Assembly (NCBI GenBank): GCA_021166845.1
Contig: JAJPEP010000035.1
Location: 1-40,041, forward strand
Direction: 5' to 3'
Source: Thiobacillus sp.
Lineage (GTDB): Bacteria; Pseudomonadota; Gammaproteobacteria; Burkholderiales; Thiobacillaceae
DNA length: 40,041 bases
Of the stretch, positions 3 to 39,794 are shown piece by piece. Each line of letters begins with the position of its first letter. Position 1 is the first letter of the stretch. The notes under the pieces were generated by a model. It saw only the letters and a program-made list of their open reading frames with translations. It made no database searches and was not told where the DNA came from. The translations under genes and the position numbers were made by a program.

Positions 3-1481
3 GGATTGCCGGACGACGTGCTGGCGATGATGAAAGCCGCGGCCGAGGCCGACGGCAAGACCGGCTGGAAGATCACCCTGCACATGCCGTCCTACCTTCC
101 GGTGATGCAGTACGCCGACAACCGCGGCCTGCGCGAGCAGCTGTACCGCGCCTACGTCACCCGCGCCTCAGAATTCGGCAAGCCCGAGCTCGACAACACG
201 CCACTGATCGGCAGCATCCTCAGGCTGCGCCGCGAGGCCGCCGAGTTGCTGGAATTCAAGAGCTACGCCGAGGTGTCTCTGGCAGCCAAGATGGCCGACA
301 CCCCGGCCGAGGTGCTGAAGTTCCTCGACGAGCTCGGCGTCCGCGCACGCCCCTACGCCGAAAAGGATTACGCCGAACTCAAGGCCTTCGCCCGCGACGA
401 ACTGGGTCTTGCAGACCTGCAGGCGTGGGACACGACCTACGCGTCGGAAAAGTTGAGCATCGCCCGCTACAGTTTTTCGGACCAGGAAGTGAAGCAGTAC
501 TTCCCCGAGCCGCGCGTGCTGGCTGGTCTGTTCAAGCTGATCGAGACGCTCTACGGCCTGCACGTGCGCGAGGACAGCGCGCCGGTATGGCACCCCGACG
601 TCAAGTTCTACACCTTGTACGACCGAGCCGGTCAGCGCATCGGCCAGTTCTACCTCGACCTCTACGCGCGCGCCTCCAAGCGCGGCGGCGCCTGGATGGA
701 CGACGTCATCACCCGCCGCAAAACGAGCGACGGCATCCAGACGCCGGTGGCCTATCTCAACTGCAACTTCTCCGGGCCGGTGGGCGGCAAGCCTGCCCTG
801 TTCACCCACGACGAGGTCATCACCCTCTTCCACGAGGCCGGCCACGGCCTGCACCATCTGCTGACGCAGATCGAGGAACTCGGCGTCTCCGGCATCAACG
901 GCGTCGAGTGGGACGCGGTCGAGCTGCCCTCGCAGTTCATGGAAAACTTCTGCTGGGAATGGGACGTGCTGAAGCACATGACCGCCCACGTCGACACCGG
1001 CGAGCCGCTGCCGCGCGCGCTGTTCGACAAGATGCTGGCGGCGAAGAACTTCCAGGCCGGCCTGCAGACGCTGCGCCAGATCGAGTTCGCCAGCTTCGAC
1101 ATGCATCTGCACGACGACTTCGACCCCAACGGCCCCCGCACTGCGCAGGATCTGATCGACGACATCCGGAAAAAAGTCGCGGTCATCATTCCGCCCGCCT
1201 GGAACCGCTTCCCCAACAATTTCTCGCACATCTTCGCCGGCGGCTACGCGGCCGGCTACTACAGCTACAAGTGGGCGGAAGTGTTGTCCGCCGACGCCTA
1301 CGCGCTGTTCGAGGACGAGGCCGAAGGCTACGGCGGCGTGCTGAATCCGGAAGTCGGCCACCGCTTCTGGAGCGAGATCCTGGCCCAGGGCGGCGCGCGT
1401 CCGGCGCTCGAATCGTTCAAGGCCTTCCGTGGCCGCGAGCCGACCATCGACGCCCTGCTGCGGCACAACGGCATGGTTTAA
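3..1481 (+). CDS. prlC: Oligopeptidase A (M3 family), 3' part
   Basis: Cytoplasmic zinc metallopeptidase of the M3 (thimet oligopeptidase) family, which degrades short peptides, including cleaved signal peptides. The frame is open to the left window edge, so the start is missing. About 490 residues are present, against roughly 680 in full-length family members. The zinc site HEAGH lies at 831-845, followed about 25 residues later by the segment EWDAVELPSQFMEN, which carries the third zinc ligand Glu. The C-terminal block with SHIFAGGYAAGYYSYKW is typical of bacterial PrlC. The stop codon TAA (1479-1481) lies at the very start of an inverted-repeat element, so the last residues may have been set by that insertion. 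Family assignment is secure. Confidence 0.95.
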   Translation, partial: GLPDDVLAMMKAAAEADGKTGWKITLHMPSYLPVMQYADNRGLREQLYRAYVTRASEFGKPELDNTPLIGSILRLRREAAELLEFKSYAEVSLAAKMADTPAEVLKFLDELGVRARPYAEKDYAELKAFARDELGLADLQAWDTTYASEKLSIARYSFSDQEVKQYFPEPRVLAGLFKLIETLYGLHVREDSAPVWHPDVKFYTLYDRAGQRIGQFYLDLYARASKRGGAWMDDVITRRKTSDGIQTPVAYLNCNFSGPVGGKPALFTHDEVITLFHEAGHGLHHLLTQIEELGVSGINGVEWDAVELPSQFMENFCWEWDVLKHMTAHVDTGEPLPRALFDKMLAAKNFQAGLQTLRQIEFASFDMHLHDDFDPNGPRTAQDLIDDIRKKVAVIIPPAWNRFPNNFSHIFAGGYAAGYYSYKWAEVLSADAYALFEDEAEGYGGVLNPEVGHRFWSEILAQGGARPALESFKAFRGREPTIDALLRHNGMV

Positions 1482-23562: not shown

Positions 23563-23940
23563 ATGGCAATAGCAAAAAAACCCGCCGCCAAACCGGTGGC
23601 CAAGAAGACCGCAGCCAAACCCGCTGCCAAACCCACCATCAAGAAGGCAGCCGCAAAGCCCGTAGCCAAAAAGGCCGCTCCGGTTAAAAAGGCAGCTCCG
23701 GCTAAAAAGGCAGTCGCCGCCAAAAAACCGGTAGCCAAGAAAGCCGCTCCGGCCAAGAAGGCAGTCGCCGCCAAAAAACCGGCAGCCAAGCCCGTAGTCA
23801 AAAAGGCCGTTGCCAAGCCGGCAGCCAAGCCCGTGGTCAAAAAGGCTGCTCCCAAACCCGCCCCGGCCAAGCCGGCTGCACCCGCAGCCGCGCCTTCCCC
23901 CGCTCCGGCAGTTTCGGTCATCAAGCCTTTCGGGCTCTAA
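23563..23940 (+). CDS. Histone H1-like Lys/Ala/Pro-rich DNA-binding protein
   Basis: A 125-residue, extremely basic, low-complexity protein made of repeats of the type KKPAAKP, VAKKAAP and AKKAVA. It resembles the C-terminal tail of eukaryotic H1 and the AlgP/H1-like proteins of proteobacteria. The last 20 residues are neutral (Pro/Ala-rich, ending SVIKPFGL). It probably binds DNA non-specifically. The repeats are also direct DNA repeats and so prone to length change. AAGGAG lies 6 bases before the ATG, and a strong terminator follows. The presence of algZR 4 kb away recalls Pseudomonas, where AlgP and AlgR lie in the same region. Confidence 0.85.
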   Translation: MAIAKKPAAKPVAKKTAAKPAAKPTIKKAAAKPVAKKAAPVKKAAPAKKAVAAKKPVAKKAAPAKKAVAAKKPAAKPVVKKAVAKPAAKPVVKKAAPKPAPAKPAAPAAAPSPAPAVSVIKPFGL

Positions 23941-28024: not shown

Positions 28025-31000
28025 ATGACCGCACGCCTGCGCGAAATCCCCTACAACTACACCTCGTTTTCCGATCGCGAAATCGTCATTCGCCTGCTCG
28101 GCGCAGACGCCTGGGACGTGCTCAATACCCTGCGCGGCGAGCGCAAGACGGGGCGCTCGGCACGCATGCTGTTCGAGGTGCTGGGCGATATCTGGGTGGT
28201 GCGGCGCAACCCCTATCTGGAAGACGACCTGCTCGACAACCCCAAGCGGCGGCAGATGCTGATCGAGGCGCTGCGGCACCGCCTGCACGAGATCGAGGTG
28301 CGGCGGCAGGGCAATGAGCTGGTCGGCCAGCTGCTGGAAGCGGCCGCGCGCGCGGTGCGCGAATTCGAGGCCTGGTTTACCGACACCGCCAGCCTGCGCG
28401 CGCGCATCCTGCGCCGCCTGGCCGGGGTCACCCGGTGCGACAACATTTCATTCGACGGCCTGGCGCGCGTCTCGCATGTCACCGACGCCACCGACTGGCG
28501 GGTGGAATACCCCTTCGTCGTGTTGGCCCCGGACACCGAAGCCGAGATGGCCGGGCTGGTGGCCGGGCTGATCGAACTGGGACTGACCATCATTCCGCGC
28601 GGCGGCGGCACCGGCTACACCGGCGGCGCGGTGCCGCTCACCGACCGGGCCGCGGTGATCAACACCGAAAAGCTCGAGGCGATGAGCGCGGTGGAGATGA
28701 CCCACCTGCCCGGCGTCGAATTCGAGGTGCCGACGATCCACTGCGGCGCCGGCGTCGTCACCAAGCGGGTGATGGAAGCGGCCGACGCGGCCGGGCTGGT
28801 GTTCGCGGTCGACCCGACCTCGGCGGACGCTTCCACCATCGGCGGCAACGTGTCGATGAACGCGGGCGGCAAGAAGGCCGTGCTGTGGGGCACCGCACTC
28901 GACAACCTGGTGTCGTGGCGCATGGTCACGCCGGACGCCGACTGGATCGAAGTCACCCGGCTCAACCACAACCGCGGCAAGATTCACGACGTGCCATCGG
29001 CCACGTTCGAAATCCGCCGCTTTGCCGCCGACGGCAAGACGCCGAAAGGCTCGCCGGAAATTCTCCTCATCCCCGGCAGCCGCTTCCGCAAGACCGGGCT
29101 TGGCAAGGACGTCACCGACAAATTCCTCGCCGGCCTGCCCGGCATCCAGAAGGAAGGCTGCGACGGCCTCATCACCTCGGCACGCTTCATCCTGCACCGG
29201 CTACCCGCGTACACCCGCACCGTGTGCCTGGAATTCTTCGGCCACGCTTCCGAGGCCACCCCGGCGATCGTCGAAATCAAGGATTATTGCGACGCCCACG
29301 CCGACGTCCTGCTCGCCGGGCTGGAGCATCTCGACGCGCGCTACGTCAAGGCGGTCGGCTATGCGACCAAGGCGCCGCGCGCCGCCCGACCGAACATGGT
29401 GCTGCTGATCGACGTGGCGTCGGACAATGAAGTCGCGGCAGGCGAAGCCGCCTCGCACATCGTGCGCATCGCCAACGCACGCGGCGGCGAAGGCTTCATC
29501 GCGGTATCGGCGGAAGCGCGCAGGAAATTCTGGCTCGACCGCGCCCGCACCGCCGCCATCGCGGCCCACACCAATGCCTTCAAGATCAACGAGGACGTGG
29601 TGATTCCGCTGCCGCGGCTGGGCGACTACACCGACGGCATCGATCGCATCAACATCGAACTGTCGATCGCCAACAAGCTGAAGCTGCTCGACGCACTGGC
29701 GGAATTCTTCGACGCGCCGCAGTTGCCGCTGCTGGAAGACGACGACACCGTCGCCGACCCGACACAGGTGGAGGACAAGCGCCAGCGCGCGCGGGCGCTG
29801 ATCGAAACGGCGCGCACCCGCTGGACCGGGTACCTGGCCAAGCTCGACGCGCCTCTGCCCACGGACGATCCGCGCCTCACCCCTCACCCCTCACCCCTCA
29901 CGATCTTCACCGCCTTGCGCGACAAGCACATCCGCGTATCGTGGAAGCGCGAAGTCCGCCGCGAACTGCACCAGCTGTATATCGGCCGGGAATACACTCC
30001 GGTGCTCGAGGCCTGCGACCGCATCCATAAAGAGGTGTTGAAAAGCCGCGTCTTTGTGGCGCTGCACATGCACGCCGGCGACGGCAACGTACACACCAAC
30101 ATCCCGGTCAACTCAGACGACTACGCCATGCTCGCCGCCGCCAATGCCGCGGTTGCGCGCATCATGAAACTCGCCACCGATCTCGGCGGGGTCATTTCGG
30201 GCGAGCACGGCATCGGCCTGACCAAGCTGGAGTTTCTCGACGCAGCGACGATCGCGACCTTCGCCGACTACATGAAGAAGGTCGACCCCGCGCACCATTT
30301 CAACAAGGGCAAACTGCAGCCCGGCGCGGATCTGCGCAACGCCTATACACCATCGTTCGGCCTGCTGGAAGCCGAATCGATCATTCTCGAAGCCTCCGAG
30401 ACCGGGGCCATCGCCGATTCGATCAAGGACTGCCTGCGCTGCGGCAAGTGCAAACCGGTGTGCAACACCCACATCCCGCGCGCCAACCTGCTGTACTCGC
30501 CGCGCAACAAGATCCTCGCCACCTCGCTGCTGATCGAAGCCTTCCTGTACGAGGAGCAGACCCGGCGCGGCGTGTCGCTCAAGCACTTCGACGAGTTCGG
30601 CGACGTCGCCGACCACTGCACCATCTGCCACAAGTGCAAGAATCCCTGCCCGGTCGACATCGATTTCGGCGACGTCTCAATCGCCATGCGCAACCTGCTG
30701 CGCAAACAGGGCAAGAAGAAATTCAACCCCGGCACCTGGGCGTCGATGGCATTTCTGAACGCGACCGACCCCGCCACCATCAAGGCGCTGCGGAAGCCGC
30801 TGATCGAATGGGGCTATGCCGCGCAGCGCACGGGGCATACCCTGTTCAAGCGCATGGGACTGATCCAGGCGCAAACGAAGAATCCGCCCGCGAGCCTGGG
30901 CAGGCCCAAGCTCGTCGCGCAGGTCATCCATCTGGTCAACAAGCCGATGCCGGGCGGGCTGCCGAAGAAGACCTCGCGCGCGCTGCTGGGGCTGGAAGAT

Positions 31001-31831
31001 CCATCGATCGTGCCGATCCTGCGCAACCCGGCCAAGCTGTCCGACGATGCCGACGCGGTGTTCTACTTTCCCGGTTGCGGCTCGGAACGGCTGTTCTCCC
31101 AGGTGGGGCTCGCCACCCAGGCGATGCTGTTCGAACTCGGCGTGCAGACTGTGCTGCCGCCCGGCTACCTGTGCTGCGGCTATCCGCAGATCGCGGGCGG
31201 GCAAGCCGACCGCGGCGAGGCGATCACGGCACAAAACCGCGTGCTGTTCCACCGCGTGGCCAATACGCTGAACTACCTCGACATCAAGACCGTGATCGTG
31301 TCGTGCGGCACCTGCATGGACCAGCTGCTGAAATACGAATTCGAGAAGATCTTCCCCGGCTGCCGCCTGCTCGACATTCACGAATACCTCATGGAAAAAG
31401 GCGTGAAACTGGAAAACGTCAGCGGCGAGAAATATCTCTACCACGACCCCTGCCACACGCCGATGAAGACCCACGCGCCGATGAAAGTCGCCAACGCGCT
31501 GCTGGGCGGCGGAGTCGTCCTGTCGGACCGCTGCTGCGGCGAATCCGGCACGCTCGCCGTCACCCGCCCGGACATTTCCACCCAGATCCGCTTCCGCAAG
31601 GAAGAGGAAATCCGCGCCGGCGTCGCCGCGCTCAACCCCGGCAAGCAGCCGGTCAAGCTCCTCACCAGTTGCCCATCGTGCCTGCAGGGGCTGTCGCGCT
31701 ACAGCGACGACGCCGGCACCGAGCCCGACTACATCGTGATCGAACTGGCGAAGCGTCTTCTGGGCGAGAACTGGATGACGAGCTATCTCGCACGGGTCGG
31801 CAACGGCGGCATCGAGCGGGTGCTGCTTTGA
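28025..31831 (+). CDS. Giant FAD-linked oxidase / Fe-S / CCG oxidoreductase (DUF3683)
   Basis: A 1268-residue fusion resembling D-lactate/glycolate dehydrogenases. In order: a DUF3683-type N-terminal domain (1 to about 145); an FAD-binding domain (about 155-340; [15 protein letters not shown] near 190, [13 protein letters not shown]); an FAD-oxidase C-terminal domain (about 380-790; [26 protein letters not shown]); two [4Fe-4S] motifs ([11 protein letters not shown] near 802, [11 protein letters not shown] near 864); and two CCG domains (FPGCGSE/CCGYPQ and DPCHTP/CCGESG, about 1015-1200). It probably oxidises a 2-hydroxyacid and passes electrons to the quinone pool. A heptanucleotide repeat interrupts the coding sequence near residue 617. 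The stop overlaps the TTG of the HIT gene. Confidence 0.9.
29875..29901. repeat. Heptanucleotide repeat inside the FAD oxidoreductase gene
   Basis: CCTCACC is repeated nearly four times in perfect tandem. The unit length of 7 is not a multiple of three, so gain or loss of one unit would shift the reading frame near residue 617. At the present length the frame is intact, encoding LTPHPSPLT. Confidence 0.9.
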
Positions 31832-32487
31832 GCTGTCCGCTTTGCGATACGCCCGGCGGAACGGTGATGTGGCAGGACGATTTCTGCCGCGTGGTGCTGG
31901 CCGACGAACCGGATCACCCCAGCTTCCTGCGCGTCATTCTCAACGCCCACGTCAAGGAAATGACCGACCTGCCGGCCGCCGATCGGCAGGCCTTGATGCG
32001 CGCGGTGTTCGCCGCGGAAGCCGCGTTGCGCGAGGTGATGGCGCCCGACAAGATCAACCTCGCCTCGCTCGGCAGCGTGGCGCCCCATCTGCACTGGCAC
32101 GTGATCCCGCGCTTTGCGGATGACCCGCATTTCCCCAATCCGGTGTGGGGCGCAAAACAGCGCGACACGCCGCATGCCGCGCCGCCGGACCTGGATGCGC
32201 GGCTCGCCGCTGAGTTCCACCCGCAAGGGGTAGGCCGTGGTTCTCCCCGCAAGGGGGAGGCCGTGGTTGTAAAGCCGATAAATCGGCAACAACCACGCAC
32301 TAAAGACGCTGAAGCGTCAAGAACCACGCTCCACCCGCAAGGGGTAGGCCGTGGTTCTAAAGACGCTGAAGCGTCAAGAACCACGCTCCACCCGCAAGGG
32401 GTAGGCCGTGGTTCTAAAGACGCTGAAGCGTCAAGAACCACGCTCACCCGGCGGCTTGCCCCTGTGCCGGGAACGGAATCACGGTAG
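31828..32487 (+). CDS. HIT family hydrolase with repeat-derived C-terminal tail
   Basis: A histidine-triad protein (nucleotidyl hydrolase or transferase), 219 residues as read. The N-terminus [11 protein letters not shown] has a CXXC pair, and the active site [10 protein letters not shown] lies at about residues 89-98. The natural protein should end near residue 130 ([10 protein letters not shown]). From there the frame runs through four 57-bp repeat units, adding a tail of [19 protein letters not shown] repeats. It then enters the antisense of phoR by 44 bases before a stop. The TTG start at 31828 overlaps the preceding stop (TTGA), and no ATG is available near the conserved start. The domain call is secure; the tail is probably non-functional. 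Confidence 0.85.
32217..32444. repeat. Nested 57-bp palindromic repeat array
   Basis: There are three copies of one 57-bp unit: one split into 32217-32244 and 32302-32330, then 32331-32387 and 32388-32444. A variant unit of exactly 57 bp (32245-32301) is inserted into the split copy, flanked by CT on both sides. Each unit holds a small hairpin (ACCC-GCAAG-GGGT) and a large one: arms CGTGGTTCT/AGAACCACG with inner GACGC-TGAA-GCGTC. The variant has CGTGGTTGT/ACAACCACG and GCCGA-TAAA-TCGGC, so the stems changed in a compensatory way. The array ends on the phoR stop codon. Confidence 0.92.
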
Positions 32488-33790
32488 CGGAAGGCGGGGC
32501 GGACATCAGGCGCTGCGTGGGGAAGACGGCAGAAAAGGTGCTGCCCTTGCCGGGGATGGACTGGATCTCCAGACGTGCGCCATGACGGGTGAGGACGTGC
32601 TTGACGATGGCGAGCCCGAGCCCGGTGCCGCCGGTTTCGCGCGAGCGGCTGCGGTCGATGCGGTAAAAGCGCTCGGTCAGGCGCGGAATATGTTCGGCGG
32701 CGATGCCTTCACCGGTATCGGTGACGGAAAAAACGCCCTCCCCCTCACGCTCGCGCCAGGTCAGCGTGATTTCGCCGCCGTCGGGGGTATAGCGCACGGC
32801 ATTCGATACCAGATTGCCGAGCGCGCTGCGAATCTCCTGCAGATTGCCTTTCAGCCAGGCGCTGCTGTCGAGCTGCAGGCTGACCCGATGCCGCCCGTGA
32901 CTCAGCGACTCGGCCTCGGATTTCAGTGCGTGGGCCAGTTCGGCGACATTGACGGGCTCGTCTTTTAGCGTGTGATCGGTGCTTTCCAGGCGCGACAGGG
33001 TCAGCAGATCGTCCAGCAGGCGCTGCATGCGCCGGGTGTGGTCGAGCATCAGGTCGAAATAGCGGCGCGATTCGCCGCGCGGCAGGTCGGGGGCGTCGGC
33101 GAGGGTTTCAACGAAGCCGCCGACCACGGTCAGCGGCGTGCGCAATTCGTGCGAGACGTTGGCGATGAAATCGCGCCTCATGGCGTCGACCCGATCGAGA
33201 TCGGTAATGTCGCGGGCGACCAGCAGTTTCTTGCCTTCGCCGAACGGCACCAGTTGCAGCGACAGGGTCAGCTCGCGGTTGAGCGGCGACTTGCACACCA
33301 GGCGGCGCGAATAATCGGAAGCGTCGAGAAAGTCCAGAAAATGCGCCTGCCGCAGCAGGTAACGCACGAACTGGCCGCGGTCGCGCTCGCAGTCCAGTCC
33401 CATGTATTTGCGCGAAGCGGGGTTGCACCAGTCAATCTGCTCATTGCCGTTGAGAATGACCATGCCGTCAGGCACCGCCATCGCGGCATGCTCGAACTGT
33501 TCGAGCGCGTTGGAGAGCTCACTGCGGCTGGCGCGCTGGCGGCGCTGGAGTTTTTGCAGGCGGTAGAAAATGTCGCCCCAGGTGCCGGTGGCGTCGGGTG
33601 GATCCACTTCATCGGGGCTTTCCAGCCAGCGCGACAGGCGGTATTCCTGCCACAGGCGGCGCAGCATCACGAAGGCCTGGATGCCTGCCAGAAAACCCAG
33701 CGCGGCCACCCATCCCCATCCAGCCCACAAAAACAGGGCAACCAGCAATACGCTGGCCAGCACGCCGAGCGGACGCCACCAGAAACCCAT
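32444..33790 (-). CDS. phoR: Phosphate regulon sensor kinase PhoR
   Basis: A 448-residue histidine kinase. Two N-terminal membrane helices without a large periplasmic loop (1 to about 45) and a linker are followed by a PAS domain (about 95-195). The DHp domain has phospho-acceptor His214 in FIANVSHELRTPLTVVGGFVE, and the ATPase domain has N, G1 and G2 boxes (LGNLVSNAVRYTP, DTGEGIA, GGTGLGLAIVK). It lies 34 bases after phoB. The stop codon TGA (32444-32446) shares its last base with the repeat array, so the C-terminus may have been reset by the insertion. Confidence 0.95.
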   Translation of the reverse strand: MGFWWRPLGVLASVLLVALFLWAGWGWVAALGFLAGIQAFVMLRRLWQEYRLSRWLESPDEVDPPDATGTWGDIFYRLQKLQRRQRASRSELSNALEQFEHAAMAVPDGMVILNGNEQIDWCNPASRKYMGLDCERDRGQFVRYLLRQAHFLDFLDASDYSRRLVCKSPLNRELTLSLQLVPFGEGKKLLVARDITDLDRVDAMRRDFIANVSHELRTPLTVVGGFVETLADAPDLPRGESRRYFDLMLDHTRRMQRLLDDLLTLSRLESTDHTLKDEPVNVAELAHALKSEAESLSHGRHRVSLQLDSSAWLKGNLQEIRSALGNLVSNAVRYTPDGGEITLTWREREGEGVFSVTDTGEGIAAEHIPRLTERFYRIDRSRSRETGGTGLGLAIVKHVLTRHGARLEIQSIPGKGSTFSAVFPTQRLMSAPPSATVIPFPAQGQAAG

Positions 33791-39557: not shown

Positions 39558-39770
39558 CCACCGCCTCCGGCACCCTGCTGGCGCCGTCGGTCACTATCTC
39601 GGAAAACATCATCAGGGAATTCATGCCGCCAATAATCTGGGGGCGGGGCTTTCCATCGTGCTGGGATTGGTTACATGGATCGCGATGGAATTCATCGCGC
39701 CCGAGGCCGCTTTGCCGCCGCAGTTCAGTTTGTCGGGCCGATTGCGAGCGCGGCGGGGATGGGTGTGGGG
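39558..39770 (+). pseudogene. Fragment of a second symporter copy
   Basis: 39558-39629 matches 38537-38608 of the intact symporter with only two differences. The sequence then jumps to a stretch matching 38806 onward, so about 197 bp are deleted. After the jump the match is weaker, with most changes at third codon positions (LGLVTWIAMEFIAPEAALPPQF against LGLVVWIAMEFVAPDAALPPQF). A 5-base insertion follows, then a 9-bp tandem repeat. The fragment cannot make a transporter. Confidence 0.88.
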
Positions 39771-39794
39771 AGTGTGGGGAGTGTGGGGAGTGTG
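39763..39794. repeat. 9-bp tandem repeat
   Basis: GTGTGGGGA is repeated 3.5 times in perfect tandem at the end of the symporter fragment. Confidence 0.9.

Follow-up and report, generated by a model that had tools for sequence, protein, structure and literature searches.

A probable mobile element of 57 bp in Thiobacillus that inserts into palindromes, including its own copies

In the window (i.e., the whole stretch of 40,041 nucleotides from Thiobacillus sp. that we analysed), four units of 57 bp stand together, and one of them lies inside another. We consider it very probable that these are copies of a non-autonomous mobile DNA element that is usually 57 bp long and that folds into two hairpins, a small one and one that caps a longer stem. 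The element inserts as an exact unit without a consistent target duplication, and it is far commoner than controls at certain positions in other palindromic repeats and at a single position in its own centre. Because it inserts into palindromes and into its own centre, nested and tandem arrays build up, and because 57 bp amounts to 19 codons, it can stay in frame within protein-coding genes. Short palindromic repeats are common in bacteria, and how those without a linked transposase move is an open question (PMC3733652, in its part on CGTC REPs). A gene that has empty, single, and nested alleles in related species makes the boundaries, the frame, and the target of such an element directly readable.

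If L and R are the left and right halves of a unit, then the array has the order L1[L2 R2]R1 L3R3 L4R4. The nested variant is unit 2; the other three resemble one another. The parts of the array are:

32218-32445, + strand: whole array, four units, 4 x 57 = 228 bp
32218..32243, + strand: left half of the outer (first) unit, with hairpin 1 and the 5' arm of stem 2; phase taken from empty sites
32244..32300, + strand: nested variant unit (TCCCC...CGCAC), 57 bp, at GGTTC^TAAAG of the outer unit; model score 88.5 bits
32301..32331, + strand: right half of the outer unit, with the inner hairpin and the 3' arm of stem 2
32332..32388, + strand: third unit, intact, tandem
32389..32445, + strand: fourth unit, intact, tandem

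An earlier note on this DNA described a 57-bp unit in three copies, with a variant fourth unit nested in the first, and our reading of the sequence confirms this. The note had the first copy split after base 28 with CT on both sides. We see the same event with the phase shifted by one base, but the CT is not a general feature of insertion sites. The paired changes in the stems of the variant are present as described (GTTCT/AGAAC to GTTGT/ACAAC, GACGC/GCGTC to GCCGA/TCGGC, and ACCC/GGGT to TCCCC/GGGGA). Units 3 and 4 are identical as well as tandem, and tandem pairs of units were also found at other loci. The four-unit array is far from chance. TRF gives a score of 295 for 32300-32450, and if the array is folded as single-stranded DNA, then z = -9.0 and 0 of 200 shuffles are equally low.

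The left half of a unit is typically Y(A/C)CCCGCAAGGGG(T/G)AGGCCGTGGTTGT and contains the small hairpin, while the right half is typically AAAGCCGATAAATCGGCAACAACCACGCWC and contains the second hairpin. The closing stretch of the left half base-pairs with that of the right half, and the unit as a whole has three helices in two hairpins. The ends of the element are Y(A/C)CCCGC on the left and CGCWC on the right; as read, these are not inverted repeats of each other, so there are no terminal inverted repeats. Among 71 distinct single units, 59 are 57 bp long, 10 are 56 bp, one is 58 bp, and one is 81 bp. Given the 56-bp units and the 81-bp one, neutrality to the reading frame is not universal, which we count against our explanation. 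The 81-bp unit (L337, on contig C5 of genome G032 near 164261; G, C, and L numbers are our labels for genomes, contigs, and loci) has 24 additional bases in the loop of the inner hairpin.

The fold appears to have been kept through compensating changes, as the earlier note proposed. We compared 19 units from the window's own genome, picked by hand from its matches and some of them diverged, with a structure that we had derived by reading the sequence. Both sides have changed at 11 of the 18 pairs, there are 33 such cells as compared to 9.6 in shuffles, and 88.3% of cells are paired versus 26-45% with the partners slid. In each of five measures, none of 500 shuffles reached the observed value, although related sequences may exceed shuffles even without structure. 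The covariation indicates that the folded structure of the element is under constraint. Nested units can be paired in two ways. In 14 nested pairs chosen by script, pairing outer arm with outer arm and inner arm with inner arm gives 235 of 252 Watson-Crick pairs versus 210 of 252 if the arms are crossed, and it was better in 8 of the pairs, tied in 6, and worse in none. Separately, a second dispersed repeat (L020-L024, L081, and L083, from the window's own genome, G008, and G029) has the same first hairpin, ACCCGCAAGGGGTACGCC, and then diverges (GGCGGGTGCCCCGCTGCTGCGCAGCGACCCTTCCGCAG or near).

The element is a dispersed family that is patchy across the order. Within the window's own genome, BLAST finds it at about a dozen further places (E < 0.001), and a covariance model built from the 19 units has 20 matches (E < 1e-6), three of them in the window. 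(Two of the 20, each at the beginning of a contig, C32 and C55, appear to be one sequence.) With E up to 0.01, the model matched 36 of the 36 genomes of the genus that were searched, with 1 to 62 matches each (these were drawn from 56 and include the own genome), and 3 of 24 genomes from other families. With E up to 1e-5, 37 of 399 genomes from the order have matches, own genus included, and these come from 17 of 158 genera. In the class, 3 of 369 genomes match, namely the own genome and two from outside the order. The model search that the earlier note suggested thus places the unit well beyond the locus in the window. No Rfam family reaches its gathering score in the window, and, as the note had supposed, no described family was matched in the searches that we made.

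That the element inserts is clearest in conserved protein genes. We read 30 loci each for oligopeptidase A, for an RdoA/YihE-like kinase, and for MutY, from 51, 50, and 53 matched genomes, respectively. The window's own oligopeptidase A gene is empty:

188..189, + strand: site without an insertion in the oligopeptidase A gene; filled in G032, G006, and G002 (nested)

For oligopeptidase A, 22 loci are empty, 7 are filled, and one has a remnant. The empty site reads CCCGAG^CTCGAC in the window and in G028. At this site, G032 and G006 have one 57-bp unit. In G002, that unit is present too, as its ACGG/CCGT arms show, and a second one lies inside it at GGTTG^TAAAG, in frame. The oligopeptidase A frames are open, with 708, 913, and 727 codons from stop to stop. 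G117, which belongs to another family, also has an in-frame unit with the ACGG/CCGT arm change at the equivalent place in an oligopeptidase A frame of 720 codons (L280). Because orthologous loci show empty, single, and nested alleles, insertion is proven. This bears out two claims of the earlier note: that the repeat is a mobile structured element and that one unit has inserted into another, which is also seen again at other loci.

Empty sites, which that note had proposed to look for, are present in orthologues of all three genes. The kinase is empty at 28 of its 30 loci, with a single unit at one and two tandem units at the other. MutY is empty at 26, filled at 3, and remnant-like at one; here the unit is read on the other strand. 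The own genome's MutY, on contig C43, is among the loci read, and a further filled MutY, in G003, is outside the 30 loci. Aligned to PDB sequences, MutY has 19 extra residues and the kinase 38 (36 without a match and 2 that were aligned twice); in oligopeptidase A, the element accounts for 19 residues of a gap of 22. With these cases, the list of proteins bearing peptides from selfish DNA comes to include MutY, oligopeptidase A, and a kinase, and the functional cost of such peptides becomes testable. We also note in-frame remnants of 24 bp (L213, oligopeptidase A of G068) and about 27 bp (L199, MutY of G077), which look as if the central hairpin had been deleted. In the oligopeptidase A of G078 (L209), another palindromic repeat of about 51 bp (AAGGACTCCGATCCACTATGGGC...) is in frame within the element's inner loop; this is a different element nested in the 57-bp element, and sequence similar to it is found near element copies in L071, L156, and L295.

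The array in the window lies in frame in one gene and at the stop codon of another, which the earlier note did not mention:

31867..32487, + strand: HIT-family gene (PF01230), with 76 element codons in frame and then a C-terminus like that of G032
32444..33790, - strand: phoR-like sensor kinase gene, convergent, ending at the array

The HIT frame, whose start may be upstream near 31829, passes through all four units. The empty HIT orthologue in G032 ends in SRQLAPGPGTESR, and the C-terminus of the window's HIT protein beyond the array resembles it. On the other strand, the stop codon of phoR, which stays TGA, is made up of the last TC of the fourth unit and the A that follows. The tail of HIT is variable among 30 loci. 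In G002, G069, G029, and G015, there are copies near the end of HIT, but the HIT frame ends differently, and we count this against our explanation.

Nesting is not confined to these genes. Nested clusters account for 10 of 81 in our first set and 4 of 58 in G032 (L066 is common to both sets). One of the four nests in G032, along with L002 and L077, was recognised by eye, where the scan had missed a decayed left half. In the nests that were read closely, the inner unit is always at GGTT(G/C)^TAAAG or its variant.

To describe the targets, we used 53 sites from the 58 clusters of G032; the 5 excluded clusters had units that the half-unit scan missed or split. Two kinds of other palindromic repeat contain 32 of the 53 sites. 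The left flank is of the GTAGGAG type at 24 sites, with CGGCG next at 12 and variants at the rest, and 8 sites are in the loop of a CCGG palindrome. However, 21 of the 53 sites fit neither class, which counts against our explanation. Of the 53 sites, 27 have a stem of at least 6 bp that touches the point of insertion, versus 104 of 1047 nearby control points. The mean folding energy of the joined sites also differs from the controls (-13.95 versus -12.68, p = 0.025, for 50 G032 sites after dropping copies with identical units and 8-bp flanks), but the difference is small and we count this against our explanation as well. In the sequence that we fetched, which is biased toward element copies, the REP was empty 39 times, had 56-58 bp inside 11 times, and had 111-114 bp inside 4 times. 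Near-identical composites of 111-112 bp occupy three REP sites in G032; two of these sites are separated by 2 kb.

We found no consistent target duplication: the first base of the element is the same as the base after it in 32 of 67 sites (T/T in 16, C/C in 15, and A/A in 1), and no single duplication accounts for the HIT, oligopeptidase A, and REP sites alike. The earlier note's two-base CT target does not hold, as the bases that flank other sites vary, and the varying flanks together with the empty sites rule out a target duplication of either CT or 1 bp. Nor is there one short fixed target on the left, as left flanks vary despite the 24 GTAGGAG-type flanks in G032. At L071 (G006, contig C44 near 1338), six left halves are followed by two right halves (LLLLLLRR). 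In this array slippage or misassembly also acts, which we count against our explanation.

As we explain the array in the window, one unit landed at the end of the HIT gene, on the phoR stop codon; a second landed in the centre of the first, and two more lie in tandem. A hairpin-recognising enzyme that is encoded elsewhere would move the element, probably via a single-stranded hairpin intermediate. The fold would be kept because the folded structure is the substrate, and the host would tolerate the element in gene ends, in repeats, and in the loops of proteins.

As a possible mover, the earlier note named a REP-type (RAYT) transposase. An element of the REP type, moved by a resident RAYT or other Y1 (HUH) transposase, would be expected to be a small palindrome without a consistent target duplication, frequent at gene ends, and to enter beside hairpins, as this one does, and 40 of the 56 genomes of the genus have Y1 matches. 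However, none of the 32 Y1 loci that we scanned carries the element (these are a subset of all Y1 matches, with flanks of up to 1.5 kb). Four genomes without a Y1 match (G005, G020, G035, and G012) hold 21, 23, 12, and 12 copies, although these are drafts in which the gene may have been missed. Also, two Y1 genes of the own genome (L032 and L033) are flanked by other repeats, and where Y1 matches do lie near copies (G002 contig C14 and G029 contig C2), the copy, as read by eye, is inside another palindromic repeat. We saw no strand bias either: relative to 20-kb GC skew, orientations split 23 against 28 (in one draft genome, with skew as a rough proxy). So RAYT as the mover is unsupported, and we think that it is doubtful, if still the likeliest single candidate among those we weighed. 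More generally, a single-stranded route is favoured by how short the element is, by its hairpins, and by the absence of a duplication; against it speak the orientations, in which we saw no bias, and the lack of a linked Y1 gene among the 32 loci. The even orientations may speak against classical lagging-strand transposition of single strands, although local GC skew is a rough proxy. As to the Y1 loci themselves, the genes at L032 and L033 (contigs C92 and C95) each have REP-like repeats of their own (GTAGGGTGCACT... and GTGGGAGCGGGTTTACCCGCGA), which differ from the element, and a third locus in the own genome, L031, sits among other repeats, as read by eye, with no copy of the element.

It seems unlikely to us that an enzyme of the DDE or IS110/IS1111 type, with REP palindromes as its target, moves a minimal element in trans. 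In some genera, IS elements do insert into REPs (PMC3733652, in the part cited), and the element does enter behind one REP tag. Against this, it lacks terminal inverted repeats and a consistent duplication, and its 57 bp are very little for a circle or synapse of double-stranded DNA. Also, no full-length element is present at a REP site in the fetched sequence, and neither is a longer autonomous or coding version; the paired stretches of over 150 bp at REP sites do not both start and end like the element. We give similarly little credence to host polymerases, which could act by hairpin-induced template switching or by letting reverse-transcribed RNA copies enter hairpins. This would account for the insertion at hairpins, for the tandem and LLLLLLRR expansions, and for the remnants with internal deletions, and no enzyme was found; but under template switching, identical unit termini at unrelated loci are unexpected. 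The remaining weight is on other routes, some of them other single-stranded ones. Finally, we see hardly any chance that the variant unit arose in place by tandem duplication and mutation, without insertion. The tandem pairs, here and elsewhere, would suit this idea, but one locus has empty, single, and nested alleles, and nesting is at the equivalent place in unrelated loci. For the nested unit, the oligopeptidase A allele series rules out local duplication with mutation; the tandem copies themselves may come from duplication.

To return to the mobile element that we favor, it seems to form a new, non-autonomous family among palindromic elements, akin to RPEs and REPs. No such element in Thiobacillus was named among the papers searched, with most subscription papers outside our reach. 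Palindromic repeats have also been reported from Wolbachia. Like RPEs and these repeats, the element is a palindromic selfish repeat that is in frame in conserved protein genes, and here too there are orthologues without it. RPEs are rickettsial, are about 105-150 bp long, and lie in frame within conserved protein genes (PMC2229807 and PMC10969869, each in part). The element is set apart from them by its description: it is 57 bp rather than 105-150 bp, has two hairpins, nests in itself, and sits in other palindromes.

As for REPs, the part of PMC3733652 that we rely on describes the GTAG and CGTC classes as stem-loops of 20-40 bp that end, on one side, in an unpaired tag, GTAG or CGTC, reports REPs inside genes in several species (Thauera included), and treats CGTC REPs as lacking a dedicated transposase and their way of moving as open. 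These REPs resemble the element in that, according to the same part, they are small palindromes, are found at gene ends, supply stop codons for flanking genes, and are in some cases inside other palindromes. In contrast, the element is 57 bp, has two hairpins and untagged ends, and itself inserts behind the tag of a GTAG-like REP. In REP-RAYT systems, the gene for the tyrosine transposase is flanked by the repeat, whereas the element is at none of the 32 Y1 loci that we scanned. Small elements derived from IS200/IS605, and REPINs, have hairpins near their ends and make no target duplication. The element is like them in both respects, but we found no fixed short left target, no strand bias by the rough proxy of GC skew, and no linked Y1 gene among the 32 loci scanned. 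It also differs from MITEs in having neither terminal inverted repeats nor a consistent target site duplication.

Short palindromes that spread are also known from organelles: those of Volvox are often inserted into one another and lie in intergenic regions and introns (PMC2670323, in part), and the GC clusters of yeast are flanked by AG or ACT repeats, which are taken as target duplication (PMC4478555, in part). What is distinctive of our element is the combination of self-nesting at one place and a preference for palindromes. More tentatively, the landing pads may be hairpins as such (the foot or loop of foreign palindromes, or the element's own centre), composites may move on as larger units, peptides of 19 residues may be written into housekeeping proteins outside the Rickettsiales, and the enzyme may fall outside the classes linked to REPs. 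Taken together, we would call this reading possible rather than likely.

The window also contains simpler repeats. There are 18-bp tandem repeats at 23668-23778 (AAAAAGGCAGCTCCGGCT), which perhaps code for a lysine- and alanine-rich tail, and exact short tandem repeats at 29875-29901 (CCTCACC x3.9) and at 39763-39794 (GTGTGGGGA x3.6).
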